Virus record (IMG/VR): IMGVR_UViG_3300041402_000782
Coordinates: 1 to 21,207 of that record
Direction: 5' to 3' (one strand)
Length of the DNA stretch: 21,207 nucleotides
Source: a virus
Shown in pieces: positions 268 through 19,858 of this stretch. The notes under the pieces were generated by a model. It was not told the DNA's origin and searched no databases. It was given only the letters and a program-made list of their open reading frames with translations. How positions within the stretch are numbered: position 1 is the first letter of the stretch; each line of letters opens with the position of its first letter. The position numbers and the translations under genes are program-made.

Positions 268-930
268 GTGGGTAAAGAACGGATGGTATTACCGGATAAA
301 CGTAAGCTTCGTAATCTGAAGCAATATGCAGATTTATCAGACGAAGAGTTTGATAAGATTTGGGAACAAAAACTGGAAGAAATCGAAGTCACTCCAGAGA
401 TGTTAGAAATAAGAATCAATGAGAGACTAGATGAACTTGCTGAAGATTATGACATGGACGACATGAAGGCTAATGATAGAGTTCAGTTGAGAGCACTTGC
501 CTTAGCTATGGTTCAGTTGGAAGATTTAGAGCAAACTGCTTGGAAAATTCGACAGAAAACCGGATACCAAGACGTTCAGATACTCGAAAAGATCAATAAA
601 ATTCTTGGTGGATTACGTGATGATATCACCAAGATTTCTAATGATCTACAACTCACAAGAAAAATACGAAAGCAAAGTCGAGAGACGACAGTTCTTGACT
701 GGATCGCTGATTTGAGGAGTAAAGCTCATAAGTTTTATAAGCAGAGAATGTTATATATTTTCTGTCCTGAATGTATGATGTTGCTGAGTACCGTATGGTT
801 AAACTATAGTGATGAAAATCAAAATAGTATAAAACTCAAATGCAAACGCTGTGAGCACAAATTTACTCAGGACCTTGCTCCTCTATATAAAACAGATAAT
901 AAAAATCTGGATGACGTAGTATTACCATAA
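268..930 (+). CDS. helical protein with C-terminal zinc ribbon, possible small terminase subunit
   Basis: A 220-residue protein with a GTG start; AGGAG at 258-262, five bases upstream, fits this start better than the in-frame ATG at 283. Residues 1-160 are strongly charged and predicted helical: an acidic stretch around 24-70, then an LRALALAMVQLED helix (about 74-86) and an oligomerisation-like helix near 105-140 (ILEKINKILGGLRDDITKIS). Residues 166-195 hold CPEC and CKRC pairs separated by 22 residues, a probable zinc ribbon. Small terminase subunits are typically short helical oligomers that bind phage DNA and partner the large subunit, and this architecture is compatible. However, the large subunit is 17 kb away and no helix-turn-helix is clear, so the role is a guess while the coding call is firm. 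Confidence 0.72.
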   Translation: MGKERMVLPDKRKLRNLKQYADLSDEEFDKIWEQKLEEIEVTPEMLEIRINERLDELAEDYDMDDMKANDRVQLRALALAMVQLEDLEQTAWKIRQKTGYQDVQILEKINKILGGLRDDITKISNDLQLTRKIRKQSRETTVLDWIADLRSKAHKFYKQRMLYIFCPECMMLLSTVWLNYSDENQNSIKLKCKRCEHKFTQDLAPLYKTDNKNLDDVVLP

Positions 931-1683: not shown

Positions 1684-2286
1684 ATGGCGTATTTAGAGGA
1701 ACCTTACGACGCAACATACTATGTCGGCAACCATGATGGGGGCTATACAGATTTTGCAACAATAAATCCTCAATGGTGGATTAATATTGCCGATGATATA
1801 GAAACCAATACAGGACTCGTGTCAGGAAAACGGGTTCTGGAAGTAGGCTGTGCCTATGGATTTCTAACCGACTTGCTTGCTCAACGTGGAGCAGATGTAA
1901 GTGGTATAGACATATCAACTTTTGCAATAAGTGAAGCAAATTCACGATTCCCTACCCTTGATTTTGTTGAGGATGATTTTCTCTCGTCAGGGGCTTTTTC
2001 TCTTAATACTTTTGATTTAATTGTTTCTTGTGGTGCTTTTGAATGTATGAGTACCGATCCTGAGATCGGGGGTTTCTTATCAAGAATGAGGGCGTGGCTA
2101 AAGTCTAGTGGTATTTATTATTTTTTGATTGACTATAAAAATAGTCCACCAATTTACTATCAGAACAGAACTGCATCTGAGTGGCTAACTGCGATGGAGG
2201 TGGGATTGCCCGGTCCTTTCACTTTTGATGTTCAGGACGTTAGTGATTTATCCGTTATGTATGCGACTAGGGTAGTGGTGACGTAA
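1684..2286 (+). CDS. class I SAM-dependent methyltransferase
   Basis: A 200-residue Rossmann-fold methyltransferase. Motif I is VLEVGCAYG (residues 51-59), the ribose-binding acidic residue is D76 in GIDIS, a motif III-like VEDDF lies at 95-99, and the motif IV strand is FDLIVSCGAFE (110-120). The length is typical for a Methyltransf_11/25-type small-molecule enzyme, and no target-recognition domain for DNA methylation is seen. AGGAG at 1673-1677 sets the start. The stop codon overlaps the next ATG (TAATG), coupling it to a fibre gene. A likely substrate is a sugar, lipid carrier or protein side chain, but none can be named. It lies apart from the other methyltransferases of the window and may modify a fibre component. 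Confidence 0.85.
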   Translation: MAYLEEPYDATYYVGNHDGGYTDFATINPQWWINIADDIETNTGLVSGKRVLEVGCAYGFLTDLLAQRGADVSGIDISTFAISEANSRFPTLDFVEDDFLSSGAFSLNTFDLIVSCGAFECMSTDPEIGGFLSRMRAWLKSSGIYYFLIDYKNSPPIYYQNRTASEWLTAMEVGLPGPFTFDVQDVSDLSVMYATRVVVT

Positions 2287-3965
2287 TGCCTTCGATTGTT
2301 CAAACGAACAGACATTTGGGTTTATCTAAAGGACAGCATAGAGTCGTTTTTCGCAATCCTCGCGGATTAAAAAGATATTATGCGTTTTACGTTTATGACG
2401 GTGTCCCTGATGTATTCGATACAACAGTTCGTGAGGAATATAGCACCGACGGCATTAATTGGGGTAATGCCCAAACTGAAGTTTTTAATTTCGACGAGAC
2501 AGGAGCCGCGGCAGGGATTATTTATTCTTTTGACGTAAAGATGCACGACGATGGTTCACAGTTGGAAGTCTGGGCTGTGGCAGTAGGATGGGATGCGGTT
2601 GAAGATGCCATACAAACGAGATATGCCTATGGCACAATCGCGGACGCGGAATCAGAAATCGTTTGGAACATCGAACAAGTAATCGACGCCGCAATCAACG
2701 ACGAAGGATTAGGAGAACCCCACTGTATCGCCCTCGCTCGAACCGACAACGGCGAGATAGTCGTTGCTTTCACAGAAGACCTTACGAACATGGGCAAGGA
2801 CTACCGCCTAACAAAACTCATCGGCTCTGATGGGGATGGTGCTTCTCCTTCATGGGGTGGTGAGACAATATGGAACGACCCAACTGGGAATAGCAACAAT
2901 CAAGATAAGGCTGAAGTTTGGTTCGGGTTGGAGAATTACAGTTCGAGTTATCCGAATAGGTGCTTTTTATATGCGAGAGTACCAAACGCAGCTACTGCGG
3001 CAAATTATATTGTGCTCGGTGCTCGACCAGATTGGAATGGGATTGCTTTTAGTAATACTTCCCCAACCTCTGGTAGTGATTTTCCTCATGCAGATGCAGG
3101 TAAATTAATTTCCGCCATTGTTGACGAAGAGGATTATGCACATTTACTCTATTTTGATGGCAATAACGGAGAGCTTGCGTCCAAAAAGAGTATTGGTAGA
3201 GGCAGTGGTTCTCTAGGACTTGACCGTGTTATAACTACATCTGATGTTGATGCCGCTACACTTACCTACGAAGAAAACCCTCCCGCAGATGTTCCAACGA
3301 GTGATGAATTAGTCGGCGGTTGGACTTCAACAGAAGGCGACCTTCATAGTGCTATTGATGAAGGTTATGTACCCAATGATGCTGAGTACATTGATAATAC
3401 TTTAGATAATACTTGTAGGTTAGGAGGGTTTGAAGGAGGGTTAGATGCTGTTGTAGTGCGTGCCGCATATACAGGAGCGGGGGGGGCTACGATAGCAGTG
3501 GCTACCTATTTAGGAGGGGTTTTGGTTGAGACCTTAGAAGCCGCACAAGTCCTTTCGGGGGGGGCAGTAGACCATGAGTATGCTCCTACCAATAACAACT
3601 GGGACGAGATAGTAATAACATCGACCAAGAATGCCTCTACCTCAGCTCGTATTTATAATCTTCATGTTGAGCGTCGTCATCTTTATGTCTTCTACCATAT
3701 TGTTGCAGACAGTGTTGATTTTAATTATAAATTTGCAGATAGCGAAAGAATCTCTTGGAGTGATGAAAAAATCGTCAGCTACCATCAAGACATAATCGCT
3801 CTCACTTCATGGAACCGTGTTATCGAAAACTCTTTACACATTGGAGGATTGTTCGGCACGACTGTTATCTACAACGAACACCCTGTTTACAAAGCACTTT
3901 CAACCACTCTCGCTGATCTGGAGTTCCCAGACCAGAACTACTACTTAGGACCGCACAGTACATAA
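2286..3965 (+). CDS. sialidase-fold-like tail fibre or spike protein with jelly-roll insert
   Basis: A 559-residue protein beginning on the TAATG overlap. Residues 1-330 and 465-559 look like blades of a sialidase-type beta-propeller: an Asp-box-like YSTDGINWG at 52-60, repeated strands followed by D/G-rich turns, and DSERISWSDEKIV at about 485-497. Residues about 335-465 look like an inserted jelly-roll or carbohydrate-binding-type domain (GWTSTEGDLHSAIDEG, then NNNWDEIVI). A related module starts the protein at 8891. No sialidase catalytic Arg triad or Tyr-Glu pair could be assigned, so binding is more likely than hydrolysis. Local base composition is unusually GC-rich (34 of 60 G+C at 2701-2760). 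Two runs of eight Gs (3479-3486, 3557-3564) fall in the insert. A receptor-contacting virion role is inferred. Confidence 0.65.
   Translation: MPSIVQTNRHLGLSKGQHRVVFRNPRGLKRYYAFYVYDGVPDVFDTTVREEYSTDGINWGNAQTEVFNFDETGAAAGIIYSFDVKMHDDGSQLEVWAVAVGWDAVEDAIQTRYAYGTIADAESEIVWNIEQVIDAAINDEGLGEPHCIALARTDNGEIVVAFTEDLTNMGKDYRLTKLIGSDGDGASPSWGGETIWNDPTGNSNNQDKAEVWFGLENYSSSYPNRCFLYARVPNAATAANYIVLGARPDWNGIAFSNTSPTSGSDFPHADAGKLISAIVDEEDYAHLLYFDGNNGELASKKSIGRGSGSLGLDRVITTSDVDAATLTYEENPPADVPTSDELVGGWTSTEGDLHSAIDEGYVPNDAEYIDNTLDNTCRLGGFEGGLDAVVVRAAYTGAGGATIAVATYLGGVLVETLEAAQVLSGGAVDHEYAPTNNNWDEIVITSTKNASTSARIYNLHVERRHLYVFYHIVADSVDFNYKFADSERISWSDEKIVSYHQDIIALTSWNRVIENSLHIGGLFGTTVIYNEHPVYKALSTTLADLEFPDQNYYLGPHST
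3479..3486 (+). repeat. G8 homopolymer tract
   Basis: Eight consecutive Gs encode part of the GAGG segment at residues 397-400 of the fibre protein. Such tracts are prone to slippage, and a change of one base would truncate or re-frame the C-terminal third. Confidence 0.95.
3557..3564 (+). repeat. second G8 homopolymer tract
   Basis: Eight consecutive Gs encode the SGG segment at residues 424-426 of the same fibre protein, starting 78 bp after the start of the first tract. Opposite slips at the two sites would re-code only about 26 residues between them. Confidence 0.95.
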
Positions 3966-6900
3966 TGGCACTTTATCTTGTAGGGCTAGAAAGCCTTGGA
4001 GCGAGTACAGAACAAAAGCGTGTAGGCGTGTGGAAAACCACAGGCGATCCTACGACGCTTTCTAACTGGTCACAAGAAGATAAATGGCTGAACTTCCCCG
4101 AAAAGATTTATTCCCTTTGGTCCGTAAACGATGGCGATGACATTCATGTTGTCACTCAACACCAAGACGGAATTGTTCGCTATTCAAGATTTGATACGAC
4201 GACGGATGCGTGGATAACTGAGGGGGAGATTGTTGTAAATCAAATCCATGATACCGGACCTACCGCTTTCGGCGTTTCTATTGGGGTTAGGTCAGATGGC
4301 GATGTAATTGTTATCTTCACTGGTTATGACGGAGTTACTACGCAAGTTTATTACGCTCGTGAAGAAGGTGCAGGTTGGTCTGCGGCAATTTTAGTAAGTT
4401 CTGAGGCGCTCAAATACATGACGGCTGGGGTTGTTGTTATGGGGGCAAGCGACAGAGCGCATTTTTTCTATACGAATGCGACAGATAATGATTATCAACA
4501 TAGGTCGTTGAGTTCTGCGAACGTATTAGATAACGAAGCTGTTGCCGAAGCCGATGCGGGTATTAATTGGCATGGGGTTGGTCGAGGAATATCTTATACA
4601 GACAACGGAGACACCATTGTAAAAGCCCCGCAAGCATTAGGGACTCCGGATTTCGAATTAGAATCTTTTAGGTTAGTAAGCGGTGCTAATCCTGCAATCA
4701 ATAGCGATGCCGTTGGTGTAGAAGAAGTCGAATTAATAAATGCTTCGATTGTCGCTTGTCATGTACTCGACGGAACTGACACATACGTTATATTCGCTGA
4801 GGCAACCGATAATGACATCTATCTTTATTCTCAAGCCGACGGCGGGGCATGGGCAAGTGTTGAAGAATTAGAAGATGCCGTAACCTGCAATCGGATTAGC
4901 GCAGAGTTCTATAACCGTTCTGGCGATAAAATTGGTTATGTTTGGCTCGATGGAACAACAACTAATTTTGACGAGTATAGTTTAGCAGTTGGTAATGATT
5001 ACTTTGCGAGCCTTGATGATGCAATAGGAATTACGGACAACATTGTCACAATTCTTGGAAGATATGTAATATTTACTGATCCTGTTGGAATTACTGACAC
5101 AGTAACAAATTTATCAGCATATAGCAGAAGCAACACCGATGCCGTAGGAATAGCTGATACAATATCTAGGGTAGGAACTTATATAAAGTCTGTTGTGGAT
5201 GCTGTTGGGATTACAGACACCCTTTCTACAGCCATAGATTATATCAAAAGTTTGGCAGATGCAGTTGGAATTACAGATACCATAACGGCAATCATTAAGG
5301 TATTTGTAGAATTGACAGATACTATAGGTATCACGGATATTCTTTCTGTGACTGGAAGTTATGTAAGAGAACTTACGGACTCTGTTTCAATAACAGATGC
5401 CCTTAGCATTACAGGCACATTTATTAGAACTTTGGCAGATGCGGTAGGTATAACCGATGCTCTGACCACATTAATTAATAGATTTGTGGCTTTGGTAGAT
5501 GCGGTGGGAATTACTGATACCATTACTACACTAATTAATAGAATTGTTACTTTAGTTGATACGGTAAACATTACGGACGCCCTTTCAACATTAATTAATA
5601 GGTTCGTGGCTTTAGCAGATACTGTCTCGATCACGGATGCAATCTCAAACTCCGTTGGCAGAATAATAACCCTTGCTGATTCTGTAGGCATAACAGATAC
5701 CATATCTGAAATCGGAAATTATGTACGAACAATCGCTGATACAGTAGGAATTACTGATGTAATAGATGCTATAAAACTAGGGGCGGCAAAATTTGCAACT
5801 TTGTTTGACACAGTTAGTATAACTGATACTCTTTCTACAGCAATAGATAAAATTATAGCTTTAGCGGATTCGGTTAGTATAACAGATACTCTCACCACAT
5901 TAATTAATAGGTTCGTGGCTTTAGCAGATACGGTAGGAATTACAGATACCCTTAATGCATTGATCGCCAGATTCGTGACCTTGGTGGATACAATAAGCAT
6001 AACCGATGCTCTCACCACGCTAATATCCAGAATTGTAACCCTAGCAGACACGGTTGGGATTACGGATGTTCTCACCACACTTGTTTCTAGATTTGTAACG
6101 CTGTTAGATACAGTAGGTATAACGGATTCTATAGCTATTACGGGAGCTTACATAAGAGCATTGGCGGACAGTGTTAGTATTACGGATGCCATATCAAAAA
6201 CGGGGACTTTTATAAGAAGTTTAGCGGACGTAGTTGGAATTACTGATGCTATAACAGCCGCAGTATATAAGCTAATTAGTCTAGCAGATACAGTCGGCAT
6301 AACTGACGCTGTTTCTAATATCGGAACATATATTAGAATATTATCAGATACTATTAGCATAACCGACGCTGTTTCTAAAGTCGGCACTTATATAAGAACG
6401 ATCACAGATGTAGAAGCCATAACAGACGCTATATCACTCTCTGTTGGTAGAATAGTAGCTCTTGTTGATAGTGTCAATATTACAGACACAATAACAACAA
6501 TAGCAATCAAAATAGTTGCTTTAGCGGATACGATAGGTATAACTGACGCCCTTACTACATTAATTTCCAGATTTGTAACTCTAGCGGATACGGTTGGAAT
6601 TACTGATGTTGTTTCTATTACAGCAGACTATATACGAGCATTGTCCGACGCTGTTGGCATTACAGACGCACTTTCAAAAACAGGAACATTTGTAAGAAGT
6701 ATAGCAGATGCCGTGGGGATTGCTGATGTTTTGGCGGCCACAGTATTCAAGTTAGTTACTTTGGCAGATACAGTGGGTATAACCGATGCCATTTCTGTAA
6801 TCGGAAACTACGTTAGAATAATTACTGACACAGTAAGTATAACAGATGTGTTTTCTAGAATTGGAACTTATATAAGAACAGTTGTGGATACAATATCTAT

Positions 6901-8626
6901 AACAGATGTCATATCAACTTCTATAGGAAGAATAATTGCTCTTGTTGACACAGTTTCGATAACAGATACTATAACAAATGCGGTATTCAAGCTGGTTTCT
7001 CTAGCCGACACGGTAGGCATTACCGATGCTGTCTCAACACTAATTAATAGAATTATAACTTTAGCGGATACGGTAAGTATTACTGATACCATTTCTATTA
7101 CGGCAAATTATATAAGAACCTTAGCCGATAACATTGGAATTACAGATGCTCTTACTACATTAGTAGATAGATTTGTAACTCTAGCAGATACGATAAATAT
7201 TACAGATACTATTAGTTCTATAGTATTCAAATTAATCTCTCTTGCTGATACAGTGGACATTACGGATGCTATTACAAGGATAGGAACATATATCAGGGCA
7301 ATCGCTGACGGTGTAAATATCACAGACACACTAGCCAGAACAGCTAATTACTTTAGGTCATTAGCAGATAGCGTTGGTATAACAGACACTATAACAAATC
7401 TTAGAAATTTGGTAGTTTCTTTAGCGGATACAGTAAATATTACAGATGCTATTGCTTCTATAGTATTCAAACTGGTTTCTCTTGCGGATACAGTTGGAAT
7501 CACGGATGTAATAACTAGGACAGGTACGTTTATAAGAAGTATCAGTGATACTGTAAATATTACAGATGCTTTATCAACTATCAGGTCTGTATTTGTTTCA
7601 TTAGCTGATAGTATTAATATAACAGATATCATCTCAACATTTATCACTAGGTTTGTAGCCTTGGCTGATACGGTAAATATTACCGATATAATGACCGCCG
7701 TAAAACTAGGTGCGGCAAAATTTGCATCCTTGGTTGATACAGTAGGAATCACGGATGCCATTACTACATCTAGGGATATTATTATAGCGTTGGCAGACGC
7801 TATTGGAATTACTGACATTATCTCTGCTACAAAGAGAGTAGTAATTGCTATTTCTGATGCTGTAACAATTACAGATATTTTTTCTGCAACGGGTACGTAT
7901 GTCAGACAAATTTCTGACGCTGTGGGAATTACAGATATAATAAGTGTATTTGCGGGCAGACTTGTACAACTTGCTGATTCTGTAGGAATAACCGACACAC
8001 TTAGTACATCTAGAGATATTATCGTAGGGTTAGTAGAAGCAATTGGAATTACGGATATTATTACTAGAGTAGGAACTTTTATTAGAGCAATTACTGATCC
8101 AGTAACAATTACAGATACGCTGACTAAAATAGGAACTTTTTTCAGAGCAATTGCTGATAACATAGGAATCACAGATGTTGTATCAACATTAGTAGGAAGA
8201 TTTGTAGCACTTGCAGACACAATTACAATTACTGATACTATATCTGTAGTTGGAAACTATGTAAGAAATCTAGCAGACACCATAGGAATTACAGATGTAA
8301 TTTCTAGAGTGCAACAATTTGTAAGAAGTATTTCGGAAGCAATTGATATCACAGACCAATTATCTATTGTTGGTACTTTTATAAGAAGTATTCAAGATGC
8401 TGTCACAATAACAGATGTTATAGCTACTCTAAAAACAGCAATAGTTTCTTTGGCTGACACAATTGGAATAACCGATGCTATTTCTGTAGTTGCAACACAA
8501 ATTATCTTTATTGCAAGAAAAATTAAAAAGACTTTATATTTGACACCAATAATTGCTAGAGATACTCTTTATTCTACACCCGTCATAGGCAAGATTCTTA
8601 AGACAACTCTTAAGACTAGAGATTAA
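3965..8626 (+). CDS. giant repeat fibre-like protein with 58 ITD repeats
   Basis: A 1553-residue protein whose first base overlaps the last base of the preceding gene (TAATG). Residues 1-350 are beta-propeller-like, with strands such as DVIVIFTGYDG and YVIFAEATDND and W-containing turns, similar in style to the preceding fibre. Residues 351-1516 are 58 back-to-back repeats of 20 residues, of the form A-D-T-V-G-I-T-D followed by about 12 hydrophobic/Thr/Arg residues. Units 13 and 45 have 23 residues. Residues 1517-1553 form a basic tail rich in K, R and T. There is no signal peptide or clear membrane helix. The architecture suggests a long virion fibre or shaft with a globular N-terminal domain. 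A tape-measure role is less likely because the repeats are not coiled-coil-like and a second, much shorter protein shares them. Function is inferred from context. Confidence 0.7.
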   Translation: MALYLVGLESLGASTEQKRVGVWKTTGDPTTLSNWSQEDKWLNFPEKIYSLWSVNDGDDIHVVTQHQDGIVRYSRFDTTTDAWITEGEIVVNQIHDTGPTAFGVSIGVRSDGDVIVIFTGYDGVTTQVYYAREEGAGWSAAILVSSEALKYMTAGVVVMGASDRAHFFYTNATDNDYQHRSLSSANVLDNEAVAEADAGINWHGVGRGISYTDNGDTIVKAPQALGTPDFELESFRLVSGANPAINSDAVGVEEVELINASIVACHVLDGTDTYVIFAEATDNDIYLYSQADGGAWASVEELEDAVTCNRISAEFYNRSGDKIGYVWLDGTTTNFDEYSLAVGNDYFASLDDAIGITDNIVTILGRYVIFTDPVGITDTVTNLSAYSRSNTDAVGIADTISRVGTYIKSVVDAVGITDTLSTAIDYIKSLADAVGITDTITAIIKVFVELTDTIGITDILSVTGSYVRELTDSVSITDALSITGTFIRTLADAVGITDALTTLINRFVALVDAVGITDTITTLINRIVTLVDTVNITDALSTLINRFVALADTVSITDAISNSVGRIITLADSVGITDTISEIGNYVRTIADTVGITDVIDAIKLGAAKFATLFDTVSITDTLSTAIDKIIALADSVSITDTLTTLINRFVALADTVGITDTLNALIARFVTLVDTISITDALTTLISRIVTLADTVGITDVLTTLVSRFVTLLDTVGITDSIAITGAYIRALADSVSITDAISKTGTFIRSLADVVGITDAITAAVYKLISLADTVGITDAVSNIGTYIRILSDTISITDAVSKVGTYIRTITDVEAITDAISLSVGRIVALVDSVNITDTITTIAIKIVALADTIGITDALTTLISRFVTLADTVGITDVVSITADYIRALSDAVGITDALSKTGTFVRSIADAVGIADVLAATVFKLVTLADTVGITDAISVIGNYVRIITDTVSITDVFSRIGTYIRTVVDTISITDVISTSIGRIIALVDTVSITDTITNAVFKLVSLADTVGITDAVSTLINRIITLADTVSITDTISITANYIRTLADNIGITDALTTLVDRFVTLADTINITDTISSIVFKLISLADTVDITDAITRIGTYIRAIADGVNITDTLARTANYFRSLADSVGITDTITNLRNLVVSLADTVNITDAIASIVFKLVSLADTVGITDVITRTGTFIRSISDTVNITDALSTIRSVFVSLADSINITDIISTFITRFVALADTVNITDIMTAVKLGAAKFASLVDTVGITDAITTSRDIIIALADAIGITDIISATKRVVIAISDAVTITDIFSATGTYVRQISDAVGITDIISVFAGRLVQLADSVGITDTLSTSRDIIVGLVEAIGITDIITRVGTFIRAITDPVTITDTLTKIGTFFRAIADNIGITDVVSTLVGRFVALADTITITDTISVVGNYVRNLADTIGITDVISRVQQFVRSISEAIDITDQLSIVGTFIRSIQDAVTITDVIATLKTAIVSLADTIGITDAISVVATQIIFIARKIKKTLYLTPIIARDTLYSTPVIGKILKTTLKTRD
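5588..5622 (+). repeat. 35-bp exact direct repeat, copy 1
   Basis: This segment of repeat unit 10 (encoding the TLINRFVALAD region) is identical over 35 bp to 5897-5931 in unit 15. Other units differ at many synonymous positions, so this pair reflects recent copying or gene conversion. Confidence 0.9.
5897..5931 (+). repeat. 35-bp exact direct repeat, copy 2
   Basis: The partner of 5588-5622, offset by 309 bp, which is five units of 60 bp plus the 9-bp insertion of unit 13. Recombination between the two copies would delete or duplicate five repeat units in frame. Confidence 0.9.
6104..7063 (+). repeat. two 480-bp superunits, each eight ITD repeats
   Basis: Units 19-26 (6104-6583) and 27-34 (6584-7063) match one-to-one by subtype. 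For example, 19 and 27 end in AYIRAL and DYIRAL, 20 and 28 share SKTGTF, 21 and 29 have YKLISL and FKLVTL, 24 and 32 have GRIVAL and GRIIAL, and 26 and 34 have TLISRF and TLINRI. Unit 35 (SITANYIRTL) restarts the order, and units 37-39 partly continue it. This indicates block duplication of eight units. Alignment was by eye. Confidence 0.7.
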
Positions 8627-8643
8627 TTAGGATAAGTGAAAAA

Positions 8644-8907
8644 ATGCCACTACCATGTCACGGAAATTGTAACGACAACTGCTGTTGTTTTCGTAATGTA
8701 ATTTGCCCTTTTTTGGAGGAAAATACAATAAAGGGTAGACGTTGGGGGTGTGAATTACTGCGTGAATTGGGAGATTGGGAATTGGTTCTTGCAGATAAAC
8801 GATATATGACAACTGTTCAAGATTTGTATAATACCACACCAGAACTAGATGGAATGAATTGTAGAGATTGGTTTTGCAAAGAGTTGATAGATGGCGACGC
8901 TTCCTGA
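8644..8907 (+). CDS. small cysteine-rich protein
   Basis: An 87-residue protein with nine cysteines at 5, 9, 13, 14, 15, 21, 36, 73 and 78. The N-terminal cluster of five cysteines in residues 5-15 (C-x3-C-x3-CCC) followed by C21 suggests metal binding, possibly zinc or an iron-sulfur cluster; YkgJ-type chelating proteins have comparable clusters, but no firm match is claimed. The middle (RRWGCELLRELGDWELV) is helix-like and amphipathic. The Shine-Dalgarno is weak (GGATAAG, about 8630-8636). It begins 17 bp after the long repeat protein and overlaps the second repeat protein by 17 bp, so it is translated within the fibre operon. An accessory, chaperone or virion role is possible. It is not a recognised family. 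Confidence 0.65.
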   Translation: MPLPCHGNCNDNCCCFRNVICPFLEENTIKGRRWGCELLRELGDWELVLADKRYMTTVQDLYNTTPELDGMNCRDWFCKELIDGDAS

Positions 8908-10504
8908 ACTAAGACCAAATGGAGATATTTCAAACTCAGGCCTGCTTTGGAATGATGATGCAGGAGTGACTCTTTGGGATGCGATAAATGATGATCCCGA
9001 TTCTCCGAACTCAATAGATTATGTAGACCACGATAATAGCCTCGATGCCGAGGCGGTAGTCGATTTAGGTTCTGTCCCTGTTGATTTCGTCAGCATGGAT
9101 ACGATTCTTATTGCTGGCTACTTCACCAAGGATGGAGCAAGAATCGACGACGATGTAAATGTCTATGTCGAGGTAACGGATAGCACAGAAGCAGTCGTCT
9201 ATATGGTGGAGGTTTTGCTTGCCTCATCGGATGCAGGTGGTGACGATACAGGATTGCAAACAGCGGGAACAATCACTTCCGCAGGTCAATCAGCAAGCGA
9301 TGATGACTGGAATGCCGCAAGACTTCATATCCGCTACGCCATGATCAAGTCGAAGAATTGGGACTCAGGTTCATTCCGGCTTGATGCAATCGAGATAAGG
9401 GGAACCTATACAGCCGGAGGAACAGCTTATATCCGTGATATTTTTGATGCTGTTGAAATTACTGATGTAGTAGTAATTACAGCAATCTACACCAGAAATA
9501 TCCCTGCCGCTATAGGAATAACCGATACAATATCAAGGGTGGGAACGTATATAAGGTCTACTGCTGACAGTGTAGGAATTACAGACATAATAAATACAGT
9601 TGTTGGTGTATTCATAAATCTAACAGACACGGTAGGGATTACAGATGCAATAACAGCGGCAATAGGTAAACTTGTAAATTTAGCAGATACGGTTGGAATT
9701 ACTGATACATTAATAAATGTACAAACCTATGTACGAAGTATTGCTGATTCTATAGGAATCACCGATGCAGTTTCTAGAGTAATAGATTTTGTTATATTAA
9801 TTAGTGACTCAGTAAGTATAACCGATATCCTTGCCAAAATTGGAACCTTTATAAGAACAGTTGCCGATACAATCGGAATTACTGACGCTATAACAGCAAT
9901 TATTAAAATATTTGTCAATTTGGTAGATGTGGTCAGTATAACCGACATTGTTGCTACGGTTGGGGAATATGTTAAAGTGATTACAGATGCGGTTAATATA
10001 ACCGACACATTTTCCAGAATTGGAACTTATATAAGAACAATTGCTGATACAGTATCTATAACAGATACTATCACAGCCGCTATTGGTAAAATAGTTTCCC
10101 TTGCTGATACTGTTGGTATCACAGATGTCATACAAGCTGTAAAAGGTGCGGTAGAATACTTTGTAAATCTTGCTGACACAGTAGGTATTACCGATACTCT
10201 TTCCAAGACTGGAATATACATCAGAAATGTTGTAGATTCTATTACAATAGTAGATGCAATAAGTAATATTAAAGCACTTGTTGTATCACTTCAGGATACA
10301 GTAGGTATTACAGATGCCATAATTAAAATTAAAGGACTGATTGCATTTATTTCGGATACAGTAAATATAACAGATACAATCTCTTTAATAGTTACTCAAA
10401 TTATAACTATTCTTTATCCGATTGAATTAAGAGTAAGGGCAACACTTATTATTGACAAAACGATTAGATTAAGCAGGAAGATTACAAAAAGTTTGAGGCA
10501 ATAA
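8891..10504 (+). CDS. second ITD-repeat fibre-like protein with jelly-roll N-terminus
   Basis: A 537-residue protein in three parts. Residues 1-184 are a beta-rich domain (LLWNDDAGVTLWDAINDD at about 19-36, SIDYVDHDN at about 42-50, then KSKNWDSGSFRLDAIEIRG at the end) that resembles the jelly-roll insert of the fibre gene at 2286. Residues 185-507 are 16 repeats of the same 20-residue ITD family as the 1553-residue protein. Residues 508-537 form a basic tail with several K and R. The 16th-to-tail junction and the tail chemistry parallel the longer protein, suggesting the same mode of anchoring or folding. The DNA of the N-terminal domain is more GC-rich than the repeats (28 of 60 G+C at 9001-9060). 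It is probably a shorter companion fibre, and carbohydrate binding by the N-terminal domain is inferred. Confidence 0.65.
   Translation: MATLPELRPNGDISNSGLLWNDDAGVTLWDAINDDPDSPNSIDYVDHDNSLDAEAVVDLGSVPVDFVSMDTILIAGYFTKDGARIDDDVNVYVEVTDSTEAVVYMVEVLLASSDAGGDDTGLQTAGTITSAGQSASDDDWNAARLHIRYAMIKSKNWDSGSFRLDAIEIRGTYTAGGTAYIRDIFDAVEITDVVVITAIYTRNIPAAIGITDTISRVGTYIRSTADSVGITDIINTVVGVFINLTDTVGITDAITAAIGKLVNLADTVGITDTLINVQTYVRSIADSIGITDAVSRVIDFVILISDSVSITDILAKIGTFIRTVADTIGITDAITAIIKIFVNLVDVVSITDIVATVGEYVKVITDAVNITDTFSRIGTYIRTIADTVSITDTITAAIGKIVSLADTVGITDVIQAVKGAVEYFVNLADTVGITDTLSKTGIYIRNVVDSITIVDAISNIKALVVSLQDTVGITDAIIKIKGLIAFISDTVNITDTISLIVTQIITILYPIELRVRATLIIDKTIRLSRKITKSLRQ
9443..10411 (+). repeat. 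16 tandem 60-bp units of the ITD repeat family
   Basis: Fifteen units of 60 bp and one of 69 bp (unit 12) exactly fill 9443-10411. The consensus is the same as in 5015-8512, including Ile-Thr-Asp at positions 6-8 in all units except 14 (Ile-Val-Asp). A 24-bp stretch at 10016-10039 is identical to 6857-6880 in the longer gene, so the two arrays share recent sequence exchange or common origin. Confidence 0.95.
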
Positions 10505-10505
10505 A

Positions 10506-10850
10506 ATGACTGATATTAAAGTTGAATTCATTTACCAAGAAGCATACGGTTATGAAATAAATGTAACAATAGTAGAGTGGGATGATGTCACCCAAGCATG
10601 GATAGCATCTGATATTTCCAGCTTTCCTACCAAACAATTCAAAATAGAAAAACCAGATAGAACAGATGTTACTGTAATTGCTGATTTTGATGAAACTGAT
10701 GGAAAAAATGGAATATTAGTTTATACCGTACCATCGGGATTAGGGCTCTTTAATCAAGTTGGATGGTATCAGTTGCAAGCCATAATAGCTAATGCATCTC
10801 AGTATTTTCCAACATCAAAAGTGGGGTTTACTGTAGATGATCCACTCTAA
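10506..10850 (+). CDS. BppU-like Ig-fold baseplate or fibre-adaptor protein
   Basis: A 114-residue all-beta protein. The pattern follows the N-terminal domain of phage baseplate upper proteins (BppU / DUF2479 type): a first strand pair (IKVEFIYQEAYGYEINVTIVEW), then FKIEKPDRTDVTVIADF, a D-x-x-N-G-I-L-V-Y-TVP strand, then GWYQLQAIIAN and a closing FTVDDPL. These domains usually attach fibres or receptor-binding proteins to the tail tip. GAGG at 10495-10498 precedes the ATG, which lies one base after the stop of the repeat gene. Its place at the end of the fibre block supports a fibre-adaptor or baseplate role. The family assignment is from memory of the pattern. Confidence 0.6.
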   Translation: MTDIKVEFIYQEAYGYEINVTIVEWDDVTQAWIASDISSFPTKQFKIEKPDRTDVTVIADFDETDGKNGILVYTVPSGLGLFNQVGWYQLQAIIANASQYFPTSKVGFTVDDPL

Positions 10851-10862
10851 AAAGGAGTTACA

Positions 10863-11696
10863 ATGAGCAGGGTTTTAGTGTTAGGGGCGGAAGGATATTT
10901 GGGGAGACACTTAGTAAAAAAGTTAAAGAGTGAGCCAAGTAATATAGTGCTTACTACAGATAGACGTGACCTTGATTTGAGAGATGGCTTTGATTGCTGG
11001 CAATATTTGGTTCATCAGCATCCAGATGAAATTTATCAATTGGCCGCTGATTCTGGAAGCATGGAATATATTTTATCTGACAAATTCTCATACGGGGATT
11101 CTACGTTAATGAATATCAATGTAATAACAGCACTCAAAAACACTGGTTTCAAGGGCAGGATTTTATTTCCAAGTTCATTTTATGCTTATAATACTGCTAA
11201 TAAATATGGTATTGAAAAATTATATAATGAACATCTCTATCTGAATTCTGGATTGGACGTTAGAATAGCTAGATTATTCAGTATATATGGCCCAGGTGAA
11301 GAACTGAATTCTCCTAGAGAGAAGGTAACAACGGCTTTTTGTAGAAAAGTTATACAGGCTGATATTGGAAAACCCTTGATTTTACGGGGAAGGCACGATC
11401 AGGTTCGATATTTTCTATATATAACAGATGCAATAGATGCTCTTATAACTCAAATGTTAGGTCCGATGAGAGGTTGTTACGATGTGGCAGGTAGTAAAGC
11501 AATTAATTTTCAGAAGCTAATTGATGAAATTATAACAGTTGATAGTAGAAATATCAGAACGGTTTGGGCAAATGCACAGTGGGAAGAGCCGATTACTCCA
11601 TTGAATAAACTGAACTGGAAACCCAAGATTGAATTTGAAGCTGGAATTAAACGTTTATATAATTGGGTAGGAGAGGAATTAAATGAACTACATTGA
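10863..11696 (+). CDS. GDP-mannose 3,5-epimerase-like NAD-dependent sugar epimerase/dehydratase
   Basis: A 277-residue extended SDR enzyme. GAEGYLG (residues 8-14) is the NAD-binding glycine motif, SSFYAY holds the catalytic Ser position, and YGIEK is the Tyr-x3-Lys pair. Similarity is strongest to GDP-mannose 3,5-epimerase: LAADSGSMEYI parallels its AADMGGMGFI, and REKVTTAFCRK parallels REKAPAAFCRK, retaining the Lys that assists catalysis in the plant enzyme. The Cys of its SSACIYP motif is Tyr here, so 3,5-epimerisation may be altered or replaced by another nucleotide-sugar reaction. The protein is shorter than the plant enzyme (about 370 residues). AGGAG at 10853-10857 sets the start, and the gene overlaps the next by 14 bp. 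It opens the sugar cassette and probably acts in the cytoplasm on a nucleotide sugar. Confidence 0.78.
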   Translation: MSRVLVLGAEGYLGRHLVKKLKSEPSNIVLTTDRRDLDLRDGFDCWQYLVHQHPDEIYQLAADSGSMEYILSDKFSYGDSTLMNINVITALKNTGFKGRILFPSSFYAYNTANKYGIEKLYNEHLYLNSGLDVRIARLFSIYGPGEELNSPREKVTTAFCRKVIQADIGKPLILRGRHDQVRYFLYITDAIDALITQMLGPMRGCYDVAGSKAINFQKLIDEIITVDSRNIRTVWANAQWEEPITPLNKLNWKPKIEFEAGIKRLYNWVGEELNELH

Positions 11697-12912
11697 AAGA
11701 GATACTTGTAGAATGGATGGAAGTAAACTAGAAACAGTATTGGATTTTGGTAGTATATATCCATCAAATTTTATAAATAAGGATAATTCTAAGGTGAGGG
11801 TTCCACTTGAGTTATGTAGAGGTACTACATCTAACTTGATACAATTACGACATACAATGGATAGAGATATACTTTATAGAAACTATTGGTACAGGTCAGA
11901 CCTAAATTCATCTATGGTAGAATCCCTAAGAGACATTGTGGTAAAGGTACAATACAAAATACATTTATTTGCTGAGGAAGTGGTCGTAGATATAGGTGCT
12001 AATGATGGAACAATGTTATCAATGTTTCCCAAGTACAGTGTGACTGTTGGTTTTGATCCTGCGAATAATTTGAAAGATATTGCAAGCACCCGTTGTACAC
12101 ATTTTATAAATGATTACTTTACAGCAGATAAATATCCTTTGAAAAAGAAAGCAAAGATTGTAACCAGCATAGCTATGTTCTATGACTTGGAAGACCCTAG
12201 TATTTTTGTAAAGGACGTAAAGAAAATTTTAGCAGATAATGGTATTTGGATAATACAATTGACCGATCTGCTATCAATGATGAAGGTCAATGCCTTTGAT
12301 ACCATCGTACATGAACACCTAGAGTATTATTCACTTGAAGTTTTATGTGAACTGATGAGAATGAATGACATGCACGTTTTTGACGTAAATTATAACCGTG
12401 TAAATGGAGGAAGTATTCGGGCTTATGTGGGTCATGCAGGTTTTAGAATAACAAAGAGAAGTGTAACCAGAGCATTTCAAAAGGAGCGTGAATATATGTC
12501 TTCTTTTGAAAATCCTTGGAAATCATTCAAAGAGCGTGTAGAAAATATCAAAGAAACTACGATGAATTTTATCCACGATGAGATTGGTAAAGGAAAGACT
12601 ATATATGGTATGGGTGCATCCACAAAAGGGAATACACTTTTACAATATTTTGGTTTGACACCTAATGAAATTATAGCCATCGCAGAGGTAAATGAAGCTA
12701 AATATGGTTTGAAGACAGTTGGAACAGGTATCCCAATTGTTCCCGAAACAGAAGCTTTGATGGTGCAACCCGATTATTTCTTAGTATTACCGTGGCATTT
12801 TATTGATAATTTTGTAGATAGAAATCAGAAATATCTAGAAGCTGGTGGAAAATTTATTGTACCTTGTCCAGAACCAGCAGTCATAAGTAAAGGTGGTAAA
12901 GAACTTCTATGA
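11683..12912 (+). CDS. sugar C-methyltransferase-like protein (TylCIII/TcaB9/NovU type)
   Basis: A 409-residue protein with the three-part layout of deoxysugar C-methyltransferases: an N-terminal Methyltransf_13-like region (1-75, ending NYWYRSDLNSSM), a SAM domain (VVDIGANDG at 102-110; SVTVGFDP) and a Methyltransf_14-like C-terminal domain (YGMGASTKGNTLLQYFG at 308-324; LPWHFIDNF at 369-377). The HEHLEYYS motif at 210-217 includes the proposed catalytic Glu-His of this family, and NGGSIRAYV follows at 241-249. The N-terminal zinc site looks degenerate: the expected CxxC pairs read CRMD (9-12) and CRGT (45-48). The family methylates a carbon of dTDP-keto-deoxysugars; the substrate here is unknown. 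AGGAGAGG at 11669-11676 gives a strong start. It overlaps the genes on both sides. Confidence 0.85.
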   Translation: MNYIERDTCRMDGSKLETVLDFGSIYPSNFINKDNSKVRVPLELCRGTTSNLIQLRHTMDRDILYRNYWYRSDLNSSMVESLRDIVVKVQYKIHLFAEEVVVDIGANDGTMLSMFPKYSVTVGFDPANNLKDIASTRCTHFINDYFTADKYPLKKKAKIVTSIAMFYDLEDPSIFVKDVKKILADNGIWIIQLTDLLSMMKVNAFDTIVHEHLEYYSLEVLCELMRMNDMHVFDVNYNRVNGGSIRAYVGHAGFRITKRSVTRAFQKEREYMSSFENPWKSFKERVENIKETTMNFIHDEIGKGKTIYGMGASTKGNTLLQYFGLTPNEIIAIAEVNEAKYGLKTVGTGIPIVPETEALMVQPDYFLVLPWHFIDNFVDRNQKYLEAGGKFIVPCPEPAVISKGGKELL

Positions 12913-14120
12913 CAAAAATAGAACTAACAAATTCCCTTAGAAGAGGGGGACCTTCAATAGATTTTGGTACTGTATGGCGTTATAATGATCATATTTATAG
13001 AACCATAGAGAAAAAGTATATAAACCAAGTTAGAACGTTGGTATCAAATACTGAACAGATGGAAAGGCTACATGAAAAGGGACTGATAGAAACTACTATA
13101 GCACCTGTTCATACAGAAGAATATGATTTTTTACTTGAGCATAAACTGGTTGAATTTGAATCACACTCGAATGAATGGTGTTTGTCAGCAAAGATAGATG
13201 CTTCTTATATGGTACTTGAGTTACTTGAGGAACTAGTAAGGCATGGTTGGTTTTTATGGGATGGAGTTCCTTTTAATGTATTATTTGATTATACTGAACC
13301 AAGGTGGACAGATTTCCATTCCATTGTGCCATTTACAGTACAGACTTGTTGGGAAGCTGAATTTAATTATCATTTCTTTAAAGGAGTGGGTGGTGATGTG
13401 ACTTTATGGGATAGAGAATGGAAGAGCATTAAAGATACCCATACAGCCTTAGCATTTTTGGAAAAAATAAAAGAAGCATTATTAACTATCCCAATAAATC
13501 CTAAAAAAACACCGTGGTTTGATTATCCTAGATTGAGTGATACTGATTTAGATGATAAACAAAAAAGTACCTTACAAATAATAGAAAAAGTAAAACCAAA
13601 TTGTGAAACATTTCTTGACATAGGCTGTAATGTTGGTTGGTATTCTAGAGCGGCACATGGTATGGGATACAGAGTTGTAGCGATAGATGTTGACGAAGCT
13701 TGTATAGCTGAGTTGTATGCACATGCCAAAGAAACCGAAAGTAAAATATTACCACTAGTTTCAGACTTTAGAACTTGTTTAGATATTATTAATCAAACTC
13801 ACCCAAGTTTTGTTAATAGAATACAATGTGACGTAACATTATCATTAGCCCTTTTGCATCATTTAGTTTTCTTTCAACACCTTGATTTTCCCTTCATAGC
13901 AGAAAGATTAGATGCACTGACAAAAAAGATTGCCATCGTGCAATTTATAACTAGAGAAGATGGTTACGTTAAACATTGGTTGAAGACTGCGGATAGGAAT
14001 TATGATTGGTATACTATGGACAATTTTATTTCGTCAATGACTAAATATTTTCCTAAACATGAGGTATTTGAATCATCACCTGTAGGTAGAAAATTAATAG
14101 TATTTGAGAAAAAATTATGA
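12909..14120 (+). CDS. class I methyltransferase with kinase-like N-terminal region
   Basis: A 403-residue protein. The C-terminal half is a SAM methyltransferase: FLDIGCNVG at 235-243, D260 in VVAIDVDE, and LSLALLHHLVF as the motif IV region. The N-terminal part (1-200) matches the pattern of long bacterial methyltransferases (a NoeA-like group, from memory) with IYRTIEKKYINQ at 29-40, NEWCLSAKIDASYMVLELLEE and LWDGVPFNVLFD. Within it D118-x4-N123 and D135-F are spaced as the catalytic loop and DFG of protein kinases, but the following Gly is His. A sugar or polysaccharide precursor is a plausible methyl acceptor because of the neighbours. It starts inside the end of the previous gene (4-bp overlap) and ends in an ATGA overlap with the next, so translation is coupled. 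Confidence 0.8.
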   Translation: MTKIELTNSLRRGGPSIDFGTVWRYNDHIYRTIEKKYINQVRTLVSNTEQMERLHEKGLIETTIAPVHTEEYDFLLEHKLVEFESHSNEWCLSAKIDASYMVLELLEELVRHGWFLWDGVPFNVLFDYTEPRWTDFHSIVPFTVQTCWEAEFNYHFFKGVGGDVTLWDREWKSIKDTHTALAFLEKIKEALLTIPINPKKTPWFDYPRLSDTDLDDKQKSTLQIIEKVKPNCETFLDIGCNVGWYSRAAHGMGYRVVAIDVDEACIAELYAHAKETESKILPLVSDFRTCLDIINQTHPSFVNRIQCDVTLSLALLHHLVFFQHLDFPFIAERLDALTKKIAIVQFITREDGYVKHWLKTADRNYDWYTMDNFISSMTKYFPKHEVFESSPVGRKLIVFEKKL

Positions 14121-15049
14121 GAGTTTTGATAGTAAATCATTCACAACAATCTTGTGGAGTATGGCAATTTGGAAAACGATTTTACGATCTTGCATCCAGA
14201 TCAACAAGAATAGAATATTTATATAAAGAGATACACGATCTAGGTACTCTTATAAAAATTGTAAATGAAACACAGCCTGTCATGATTATTTATAACTGGT
14301 ATCCTGTTACTATGACATGGTTGCCAGAGCAGTTTGTACAAGAGGTCAAAGAAGTTAAACACTTTTTCAACTGGCATGATGGGCATGTAAGACAGAATTA
14401 TGATGGTTATATATTCTTTGGTGCAGGCGAAAAGGACCTAGATGCCGAAAGAATTTATGAAGAGAAGTCTTTTATAATACCACGACCTTTATTTGATTAT
14501 GAAACTACTCATGAAAAAAATGAGATACCACACATAGGTAGTTTTGGATTAAGTGGTTGGCATAAAGGATTTCCAGACCTTGTTACACTGGTAAACAATA
14601 CTTTTGATAAGGCTGTTCTGAATATTCATATGCCTTTCACCTTCTTTGGTGATACACAAGGGGTTGAAGGGAAAAAGATTGCGGCAATGTGTAGAGAACT
14701 GAATACTAATCCAAACGTTCAATTGAACTTAACACATCATCTGCTATCAAATGAAGAACTATTAGATTTCTTAGCCAAAAATGACATCAATGCTTTTTTA
14801 TATCAAGCTAATAGTGAAGGACTTTCAAGTGTGACAGACTACGCCTTGTCTGTAAAGAAGCCGATAGCAATTACGAATAGTATGATGTTTAGACACATTG
14901 TAAGTGATGAAATTGTTGTTGGAGAGAATAATTCATTAATTGATATAATGAATAGAGGTACAGCACCATTAGAGGAATTTTACAAAAGGTGGTCTACGGA
15001 TAAGTTTGTGGAGGAATTAGATAATGTCGTTGAATCGAATATTAACTGA
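14117..15049 (+). CDS. GT-B type glycosyltransferase (GT4-like)
   Basis: A 310-residue protein with a two-domain GT-B appearance. The N-terminal domain starts MRVLIVNHSQQSCGVWQFG, a typical first strand plus glycine loop. The C-terminal domain starts near IGSFGLSGWHKGFPDLV (140-156) and contains the donor-binding segment EGLSSVTDYALSVKKPIAIT (234-253), in which the Glu and the SS(V)-Y-A pattern correspond to the GT4 nucleotide-sugar site. Total length is at the short end for GT4 enzymes, and the donor sugar cannot be predicted. It begins at an ATGA overlap and overlaps the next methyltransferase gene by 26 bp. There is no membrane segment, so it is a cytoplasmic enzyme. Confidence 0.75.
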   Translation: MRVLIVNHSQQSCGVWQFGKRFYDLASRSTRIEYLYKEIHDLGTLIKIVNETQPVMIIYNWYPVTMTWLPEQFVQEVKEVKHFFNWHDGHVRQNYDGYIFFGAGEKDLDAERIYEEKSFIIPRPLFDYETTHEKNEIPHIGSFGLSGWHKGFPDLVTLVNNTFDKAVLNIHMPFTFFGDTQGVEGKKIAAMCRELNTNPNVQLNLTHHLLSNEELLDFLAKNDINAFLYQANSEGLSSVTDYALSVKKPIAITNSMMFRHIVSDEIVVGENNSLIDIMNRGTAPLEEFYKRWSTDKFVEELDNVVESNIN

Positions 15050-15882: not shown

Positions 15883-15890
15883 GATAGGAA

Positions 15891-17403: not shown

Positions 17404-18308
17404 TGAGTACACTGATAGGAATAGTAACTTTTGGAAATTTGCCCTTTACAAAATTAACAATAAGAGGAATTAAAGAAACTGTTACAGAACCTTATTCTAT
17501 TTATGCAATTGTTGGTAAGCCCAATGATATTGAAACAGCAGAATGGCTTAGTTCGGAGAGTATACCGCACCTGATCCATGATCAAAACTATGGATTTCCG
17601 TACTCTTTAAATGATATTTATGATTTCGCATGGAAATTCAATAATTTTGACAATCTGGTAATAATTGGAAACGATGTAATTCCATATCCACATGCAATAG
17701 ACTCTTTGATCAAAATCGCAGATACTACAGATTATGAATGGATTTGTTCTAGTCAAATTGATTCTAAATCTATGGTCTTGACATGGCCTTGGACAAGACG
17801 TTATTTTGAAGGTCCAACTCTTATATTTTCTGATTTTGATGCACGTCCTTGGGAAAAAGTACCAATAGATTATTCAGATAAAATAGAAATCAATCCCACA
17901 CCTATGAGTGATGTTCATAATTTGGCACTTTACAAAAAAAGCGTATTCGACAAAATTGGATACATAGATGTAAATTTCTATCCAGCATATTATTCAGATA
18001 ATGATTATGTACGACGAGCACTTCATGCTGGAATAACATCCTGCACAGCAAGTAATTCAATTTACTTTCACTTTTGGAGCAGAACAATTCATCAAGAAAC
18101 TGGTGGCTCAACTCATATTTATTTCAATTTGAATAGAGTTTTCTATATTATGAAGTGGGGAAATGATTTTGGAAAAGAAGCATTTGATGCACCATTCGAT
18201 GGAAAACCATATCAACTTGGTGAAACAGTTCTACAACCAGATATCAAAATTGATAGTAGAGAACAAGAGTTGAAAATTATTAACCATTGGAAAACTAGAG
18301 GTCGTTAA
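17403..18308 (+). CDS. GT-A (GT2-like) glycosyltransferase
   Basis: A 301-residue protein. It begins LIGIVTFGN (4-12), the first strand of the GT-A nucleotide-binding fold, with QNYGFPYSLNDIYDFA (61-76) and VIIGNDVIPYP (86-96), where N-D replaces the usual D-x-D. AYYSDNDYVRRALHAG (195-210) gives the acidic acceptor/catalytic segment comparable to the ED motif of GT2 enzymes. The C-terminal FHFWSRTIHQETGG and KWGND suggest a metal- or substrate-binding His. It opens on a TAATG overlap and closes on a TAATG overlap with the terminase gene, so the sugar cassette is translationally joined to DNA packaging. Donor and acceptor are unknown. Confidence 0.78.
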   Translation: MSTLIGIVTFGNLPFTKLTIRGIKETVTEPYSIYAIVGKPNDIETAEWLSSESIPHLIHDQNYGFPYSLNDIYDFAWKFNNFDNLVIIGNDVIPYPHAIDSLIKIADTTDYEWICSSQIDSKSMVLTWPWTRRYFEGPTLIFSDFDARPWEKVPIDYSDKIEINPTPMSDVHNLALYKKSVFDKIGYIDVNFYPAYYSDNDYVRRALHAGITSCTASNSIYFHFWSRTIHQETGGSTHIYFNLNRVFYIMKWGNDFGKEAFDAPFDGKPYQLGETVLQPDIKIDSREQELKIINHWKTRGR

Positions 18309-19858
18309 TGACAATAACAGAAAGAATAACCTACGAAGATTTGGAAGTCTATGAGATACTGAGAAATCCAATCTTATGTGGTGAATTTCACCGCAATATG
18401 GATATACCAGAATGGAGCGAAGACGAATGGGAGTATTCAGATTACCAAAAGGAATACCTTGGAGATTTTGGTCGTTATGTCTCTTTATGTTGCGGACGTG
18501 CTGTTGGAAAGACTGTAACACTAACAGACCTGATCGTTTGGTATCTAATTAATTCAGTATTTCCACAAGATTACCTTGTATATACAGTTCCGAGTAAGGT
18601 TCACTTGGAACCAGTATGGTTTAGTTTGATCAAAGCTTTTAGAAATAACGACTTACTAAAACACTTTGTTGAAAGTAAAAAGGGAATTAACTCCTCAAAC
18701 TTTACTATTCGACTTCTAAATGCATCTGAGTTAATTTGTCGTATTGCTGGTCAGAGTGGTACCGGTGCAAATGTCGTAGGATTACACTCACCTATAGTCA
18801 TTTTAGATGAGGCAGGATATTATCCTTGGGGAACTTGGGTTGAACTTCAACCTGTTCTAAATTCATGGCAAGAGGGAATGAAATTATTTATCTCAGGAGT
18901 CCCAACGGGAATGCGTGAAAATAATGTTCTCTATTATGCCGATGAAGTGGATGATAAATTTAGTCACCATAGAACATCTGCACATGAAAATCCAAGATAC
19001 TCAGATGCAGATGAAGAAAGAAATTTAAAGCAATATCATGGAGTAGATGGAGAGGATTATATTCACTTGGTATTAGGAAGGCATGGTTCACCTGTTCATG
19101 CTGTATTTGATAGACGTTTAATGAAAATTACAGACTATCCTGTTTATAAGGTTAAAGCAAATGGAATTGATGATAGTCAACAAGAAATCATAGGCAAGAT
19201 TGCATTATTACCTCCAGTTCCAGAGCATGATATAAAAATCATGGGGATTGATACAGGTTACACAGAACCAACGGCGATTGTAATATTATACGAACATAAA
19301 AATGTATTAAAAATACACGCTAGAATTGAACTTTCAAAAGTAAAATACAATATACAGGAGAAGATTTTTGACTTCATAGACAGTCGATTGGGACCCTTTG
19401 AAATAATAGCAATAGACGCTGGAAATGAACAAGGTTTAGTTCATCACTTGCAAAATGATGACGAATATCTTCATAAAAATTATAAGAAACGATTGTACTC
19501 GGTAAAATTTGGACAATGGTTAACCCTTGGTACAACTCCAGATGGAGAAGAAATCAGATCAAAGACAAAACCATATTCTGTGAGTATTCTACAAGAATAT
19601 ACAAACTCACATAAAATTATTTATACCAGTACAGATTTAGATTTGATCACCGAAATGGAACGAATGACATATTCAAAAACACCAACTGGTGAAATTGTAT
19701 ATAGAACTTTAACTCCAAAAGGTGGCAAACGAGGAGCAGACCACTTTACTTCTGCTATGCTGTGTGCAAGTCTTACATATGCCTTGATGGTAGAAGGTAG
19801 ACTTTTTTCACAGAAAAAACCAAAATTAGCGGGCAGTAGGTGGGTGAGAGGACACTAA
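18308..19858 (+). CDS. terL: terminase large subunit
   Basis: A 516-residue packaging motor. The ATPase domain has a Walker A-like CCGRAVGKT (61-69), Walker B IVILDE (163-168) and a coupling-type SGVPTG segment (196-201). The RNase H-like nuclease domain shows the expected three acidic sites: D315 in MGIDTGYTEPTAIV, D370 in IIAIDAGN and D478 in GADHFTSAML. The length is normal for phage terminases. It powers DNA translocation into the prohead through the portal and cuts the concatemer. The start overlaps the upstream glycosyltransferase stop, and one base separates its stop from the portal gene. This is the most secure functional call in the window and identifies the element as a tailed phage or close relative. 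Confidence 0.95.
   Translation: MTITERITYEDLEVYEILRNPILCGEFHRNMDIPEWSEDEWEYSDYQKEYLGDFGRYVSLCCGRAVGKTVTLTDLIVWYLINSVFPQDYLVYTVPSKVHLEPVWFSLIKAFRNNDLLKHFVESKKGINSSNFTIRLLNASELICRIAGQSGTGANVVGLHSPIVILDEAGYYPWGTWVELQPVLNSWQEGMKLFISGVPTGMRENNVLYYADEVDDKFSHHRTSAHENPRYSDADEERNLKQYHGVDGEDYIHLVLGRHGSPVHAVFDRRLMKITDYPVYKVKANGIDDSQQEIIGKIALLPPVPEHDIKIMGIDTGYTEPTAIVILYEHKNVLKIHARIELSKVKYNIQEKIFDFIDSRLGPFEIIAIDAGNEQGLVHHLQNDDEYLHKNYKKRLYSVKFGQWLTLGTTPDGEEIRSKTKPYSVSILQEYTNSHKIIYTSTDLDLITEMERMTYSKTPTGEIVYRTLTPKGGKRGADHFTSAMLCASLTYALMVEGRLFSQKKPKLAGSRWVRGH

Follow-up and report, generated by a model that had tools for sequence, protein, structure and literature searches.

Two arrays of one repeat in neighbouring genes

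The window analysed here, a 21.2-kb fragment of a viral genome (IMG/VR record IMGVR_UViG_3300041402_000782, positions 1 to 21,207), carries two neighbouring genes for candidate fibre proteins, each with a tandem array of one 20-residue unit, hereafter the ITD repeat (Table 1). The first protein holds 58 consecutive units and the second 16, exactly where an original prediction from the sequence had placed them. The period of 60 bp or 20 residues given there likewise holds: 71 of the 74 units are exactly 20 residues long, and the other three have 23, with the three extra residues in the second half of the unit (...KLGAAKFA.., ..KGAVEYF..). Self-identity at a lag of 20 residues is 0.455 for the first and 0.336 for the second array, far above the maxima found in 500 shuffles (0.144 and 0.191, respectively). 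Ile-Thr-Asp occupies unit positions 6-8 in 71 of the 74 units, as had been counted before, the exceptions being IAD (twice) and IVD, and the consensus over both arrays reads A-D-T-V-G-I-T-D-(A/T)-(I/L)-(S/T)-x-x-x-x-x-(I/F/V)-(R/V)-x-(L/I). Within the units of 20 residues, I6 and D8 are invariant, while D2 and T7 are each present in 68. The order of units in the arrays shows no clear higher-order repeat (best lag 0.572; the 95% limit from permutations is 0.566).

Tandem Repeats Finder recovers only short pieces, because the DNA copies have diverged; on average, two units are 53% identical in DNA and 42% identical in protein. At identical residues, codons agree in 36.1% of comparisons (0.361), where 34.4% (0.344) is expected from codon usage alone. 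Agreement this close to the random expectation means that synonymous sites are saturated, which rules out a recent expansion of the arrays at the DNA level. Since the codons have been randomised between units, the repeat is, on this evidence, ancient and maintained by selection at the protein level. Antisense to the first array lies a 290-residue open frame (7348-8220, -), which is seemingly a by-product of the codon pattern of the repeat and not a gene candidate.

The N-terminal regions of the two array proteins are unrelated to each other, and relatives of either were found neither in viral contigs nor in Pfam or PDB. A beta-propeller, suggested by eye for the first N-terminal region and similarly for the 559-residue neighbour, is not claimed, as these two do not match each other.

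Table 1. Positions of the repeat arrays and of other features of the window
Feature	Position	Strand	Remarks
First array protein, 1553 residues	3965..8626	+	Unique N-terminal region (residues 1-350), 58 units, short basic C-terminal tail
First array, 58 units	5015..8512	+	Consensus A-D-T-V-G-I-T-D-x-I/L-S/T-x-x-x-x-x-I/F-R/V-x-L; 23-residue units start at 5735 and 7664
Second array protein, 537 residues	8891..10504	+	N-terminal region (residues 1-184), 16 units, short basic C-terminal tail
Second array, 16 units	9443..10411	+	One 23-residue unit, starting at 10103
114-residue protein abutting the second array gene	10506..10850	+	In relative G009, a 39% identical homologue immediately follows the array gene
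phrog_5417-family protein, 193 residues	984..1565	+	Function not assigned; PHROG match E 3.8e-8; linked to array genes across the family
559-residue protein directly upstream of the first array gene	2286..3965	+	Stop/start overlap with the first array gene; no family match
Terminase large subunit	18308..19858	+	Marks the window as a tailed virus; anchor for comparing relatives
Portal	19860-21206		–

A repeat family of environmental viruses and archaea

One profile of the unit matched 28 viral loci and a second profile 37, partly on the same contigs, and in total the repeat is present in about 40 further environmental viral contigs. It was not found in cultivated phages (50,697 records) or in plasmids. 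The earlier remark that arrays of this length are uncommon in phage virion proteins therefore holds, as far as this repeat goes, among cultivated phages, whereas among environmental ones it does not. After removal of duplicates, the family set comprises 47 array open reading frames (ORFs) with 848 units, which range from 16 to 26 residues; 610 of them have 20 residues, and lengths of 18 and 22 are also common. Over the 38 ORFs with at least four units of 20 residues, the conserved marks are D/E2 (94%), V/I/L4 (93%), G5 (69%), I/L/V6 (96%), T7 (76%), D8 (96%) and R/K18 (64%). N-terminal regions vary widely among the array proteins, and LamG/concanavalin-like domains occur in three loci (L058, L070 and L101).

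Several members of the family have a peculiar layout. The array protein at L061:1039-7698 (2220 residues) alternates units of 17 and 20 residues, giving a 37-residue super-repeat, and it shares a similar, folded-looking C-terminal domain of about 100 residues with the array protein at L065:3028-7038 (1337 residues). At L067:1-8442, a 2814-residue frame that is open at its 5' end combines ITD-type units with a second repeat (VFQTNVFDxDVFQ). Two back-to-back array ORFs of 841 and 260 residues at L083:6741-10050 are separated by a stop and a change of frame, which could mean that the array is split, that a frameshift occurred or that the assembly is in error.

Searches of Pfam, NCBIfam, PHROG and PDB gave no credible match with unit-periodic coverage for the repeat, in keeping with the original statement that no established fold was recognised, and a literature text search for the motif returned nothing relevant. 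The profile search proposed at that time likewise found no credible match to a known non-fibre repeat family, its relatives being environmental viral contigs and Nitrososphaeria. Individual scores were rejected: the Pfam match to Vps35, a helical protein of eukaryotes, has E 9e-11, is confined to one stretch of 219 residues and was judged a composition artefact, those to GH123, TetR_C_9 and TAF are single stretches in biased sequence, and NCBIfam NF033849 scored 86.8 against a cut-off of 650, in L061 only. The repeat is a real family absent from the curated libraries searched, and array proteins consequently go unannotated. A tblastn match to Mycobacterium phage Aminay runs antisense to its minor tail protein gp26 and is coincidental. 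Like the proteins described here, gp26 (L009:8340-9749, -) carries an array of its own with a 20-residue period, in this case in an annotated minor tail protein, but its sense repeat (GLSVTPTLxVAGAxR) is different and scores only 4.9 bits against the ITD profile; the two are taken as analogues, with no relationship in profile score.

Beyond viruses, the repeat was confirmed in Nitrosotalea and Nitrosarchaeum genomes, and at E <= 1e-8 it occurs in 38 of 150 sampled Nitrososphaeria, in open frames of up to 4232 residues; this genome scan was narrow, and the repeat may occur in other phyla too. A first scan of genome contigs with a 40-residue query gave no confirmed match, and a longer query succeeded. 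The 2401-residue protein of Nitrosotalea devanaterra (L075) matches profile A7 at E 1.4e-26, a profile that its own array rows helped to build, and was found independently by tblastn at E 1e-29. These giant proteins have the same 20-residue unit with D2, V4, I6, T7 and D8. They are, however, cellular. The one from Nitrosotalea starts with a hydrophobic stretch resembling a signal sequence, contains LamG and NHL domains and is folded in its C-terminal part. Since viruses and Nitrososphaeria both use the repeat, one may ask in which direction it was transferred.

Candidate folds of the repeat unit

The original prediction held that the units stack as a fibrous shaft, either as a beta-solenoid coil or as a trimeric beta-spiral, and neither of these folds could be established. 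AlphaFold2 monomer models of seven native window units (26 sequences) and of five (69 sequences) contain strands only, at predicted local distance difference test (pLDDT) scores of 44.8 and 40.6, and are unusable. Such low confidence is what one expects of a unit that needs to oligomerise in order to fold, although this is no proof. A monomeric beta-solenoid with one coil per unit would agree with the all-strand character of both models, and 20 residues per turn is usual for solenoids. For a true solenoid, however, the failure to predict a confident, regular one is unexpected, as AlphaFold2 is reported to give confident solenoids even to unrealistic repeats (PMC11795689). We therefore regard this fold as quite improbable.

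The canonical triple beta-spiral, as in the shafts of adenovirus and reovirus, can be laid over the unit with c=16, e=18, g=20, a turn at 20-3, k=4 and m=6. This register yields a core that is on average 82% hydrophobic (minimum 55%), and it would place the variable loop between repeats, a site at which the fold tolerates loops. Yet the consensus fits only in part. Of the residues that define the spiral, which include Gly or Pro at j (PMC3150272), position j (3) has either in just 4% of window units, so that the Gly/Pro test failed, and position e (18) is often charged, Arg and Lys together accounting for 64% in the family. With a permutation P of 0.08 and a unit of 20 residues versus 15, a spiral of this type seems very unlikely.

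A further candidate is a trimeric alpha/beta coiled coil, in which two helical heptads (positions 7-23) would alternate with a beta-layer formed by V4-G5-I6. Hexad and nonad elements of such coiled coils were described by Hartmann et al. 2016, with insert sizes that predict lengths of 20 and 23 (PMC4786415), and all 74 window units fit this arithmetic, as 20 = 14+6 (hexad) and 23 = 14+9 (nonad). Furthermore, the core spacing 10-13-17-20-4' equals 3-4-3-4, the register beta1 = V4 makes the a/d positions 90% hydrophobic and puts a small residue at the centre in 96% of window units, and in 38 of 38 loci the moment is larger for a helix-type than for a strand-type pattern. Permuted positions nevertheless reach the a/d score in 5.6% of trials (P 0.056), so the a/d pattern is not significant alone. 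Moreover, 175 of the 848 family units have 18, 19, 21, 22, 25 or 26 residues and lie outside the length arithmetic, glycine-rich inserts would interrupt the middle of a helix, and positions 9-20 are low in Glu, Gln and Lys and rich in Ser, Thr, Ile and Val. Proline, when present, favours position 3, within the proposed helix, and the AlphaFold2 models have no helix at all. The known alpha/beta coiled coils OMP100, Tcar0761 and the Streptococcus prophage hyaluronidase 2C3F resemble the window arrays in the possible heptad spacing, the small-centred three-residue layer and the lengths of 20 and 23, whereas the ITD family breaks the length arithmetic, is poor in Glu and Lys and has no sequence match to them. 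Taken together, we consider a coiled coil unlikely.

It is the units that break the hexad/nonad arithmetic that lead us to rank a beta fold first. The unit is best read as a putative beta strand (about 4-12), a variable loop (about 13-16), a second strand (about 16-20) and a tight turn (about 1-3). Variation in loop length is concentrated at positions 13-16, where Gly/Asn-rich inserts occur in L102 and L103, in L071 (TLAVGNAV) and in Nitrosotalea (STSGNKIKSL), and some diverged members look hairpin-like. Chou-Fasman propensities favour strand over helix in 33 of the 38 loci. Unit lengths of 18 and 22 next to 20, two residues apart, fit this reading as well, as do the strands in both low-confidence AlphaFold2 models. 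Tentatively, and at somewhat less than even odds, the ITD repeat might be a fibre architecture new to solved structures, be it a strand-loop-strand unit of 20 residues that is obligately oligomeric or a new alpha/beta coiled coil of a hexad plus two heptads, that is common to environmental phages and ammonia-oxidising archaea and was transferred between them or their hosts. Stalk repeats set the length and stiffness of a fibre, and few fibre folds are known. A structure of the ITD unit would add a new fold or extend a known one, and it would aid the annotation of receptor-binding proteins in many uncultured viruses.

Gene setting and proposed role

Tail genes are not visible in the window because the contig is a fragment. 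By terminase, 19 relatives were found, and 15 records were searched for the repeat, two of which (G009 and G010) carry it at identical array loci. The gene order in G009 runs from a tape measure (phrog_4211, E 1e-28), a tail protein (phrog_1887), a weak match to a baseplate hub (phrog_177) and a virion structural protein (phrog_18179) to a phrog_5417 protein, two putative lipoprotein genes, the array protein, a homologue of the 114-residue protein and a GH25 endolysin. The array protein of G009 (633 residues) has an N-terminal region different from those of the window proteins. The succession of array gene and 114-residue protein is common to the window and G009, and small proteins of similar size come after the array gene in many other loci. 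A BppU-type baseplate domain is not claimed for these small neighbours, since the match (E 0.099) concerns one protein, upstream of its array gene. G014 and G005 lack the repeat, and three other large fibre-like genes occupy the same place; in a repeat-free relative these sit between the homologues of window positions 268-930 and 10863-11696. The gene context thus shows the array gene to be part of an exchangeable cassette, which we read as the adsorption module. The 559-residue protein upstream of the first array gene is possibly a third protein of the tail-fibre type, judging from position only.

Elsewhere in the family, the genes found close to an array gene include those for portal, terminase, major head, head-tail adaptor or endolysin, and a gene of the phrog_5417 family lies no more than 3.4 kb away at 29 of 43 array loci. 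The array genes of L079 and L080 are about 99-100% identical in aligned bases, whereas their flanking 3 kb are 81.7% identical, which looks like a sign of recent gene exchange, as expected for fibre genes.

With a probability of roughly 0.6, we read both array proteins as structural proteins of the tail or adsorption apparatus of a tailed virus, with the repeats forming a stalk. What speaks for this class is the position of the gene between tail or adsorption and lysis functions, in the G009 order of tape measure, hub, array and lysin and in other loci, together with terminal domains that are exchangeable, as seen from the differing N-terminal regions and from L079/L080. From the original proposal of a fibrous shaft, the gene context lends good support to a structural protein of the fibre or adsorption type, and the architecture of a shaft is inferred. 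With known repeat-shafted viral fibres, such as the triple beta-spirals of adenovirus and reovirus and the long fibres of the T4 type, the ITD proteins share the long, regular array, a gene in the adsorption region and a copy number that would set length. In contrast, no sequence relationship to them was found, the unit has 20 residues instead of 15, and the Gly/Pro of the triple spiral is absent. In kind, the repeat is placed among the repeat-shafted fibres.

In the proposed arrangement, the 20-residue units would stack along an axis into a long, thin and probably trimeric stalk joining an anchoring part to a binding part, with D2 next to the turn and D8 in the first strand of each unit. Copy number would set the length, so that stalks of two lengths would result from the two proteins. 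Each stalk would carry the N-terminal domain, a part that varies from protein to protein and from phage to phage and resembles lectins in some relatives. If the anchor is formed, as we guess, by the C-terminal tails, which are short and basic, together with the small protein encoded downstream, the variable N-terminal domains would be outermost, a polarity that is itself a guess.

Some observations count against a virion stalk made of strands. The same repeat serves in archaeal chromosomal proteins and is therefore not specific to virions. The N-terminal regions in the window are without detectable relatives, which leaves a receptor-binding role for them unproven. Furthermore, the AlphaFold2 confidence is too low to prove any fold, in 38 of 38 loci the hydrophobic residues of positions 9-20 are spaced as in a helix, and certain units, TNARELYKTL among them, have a helical look. 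The archaeal relatives in particular bring up another reading, an adhesin outside the virion that the infected host would secrete or display on its surface, for which the array would act as a flexible spacer. Long open frames with the repeat on Nitrososphaeria chromosomes, the signal-like start and the LamG and NHL domains of the Nitrosotalea protein, and the two putative lipoprotein genes adjoining the array gene of G009 would all suit such an adhesin. Yet no obvious N-terminal signal sequence was seen on inspection of 26 viral array proteins, and the array genes sit among virion structural and lysis genes. An adhesin is therefore decidedly unlikely in our view, and we retain the structural reading.

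The lipoprotein-type signals in the structural cassette of G009 (L037:9135-11188, -; ..LLVACS.. and ..LLLSACAP..) are followed by Pro/Thr-rich stretches. Their style resembles that of Chloroflexota lipoproteins and may hint at the host, as an impression only. Between the fibre cassette and the terminase, window positions 10863-18308 encode an NAD-dependent epimerase/GDP-mannose dehydratase-like protein, a C-methyltransferase, further methyltransferases, sugar-transferase-like proteins and proteins without a Pfam match. This block, which is perhaps devoted to glycan decoration of the virion or the DNA, is largely conserved in G014, with identities of up to 79%.

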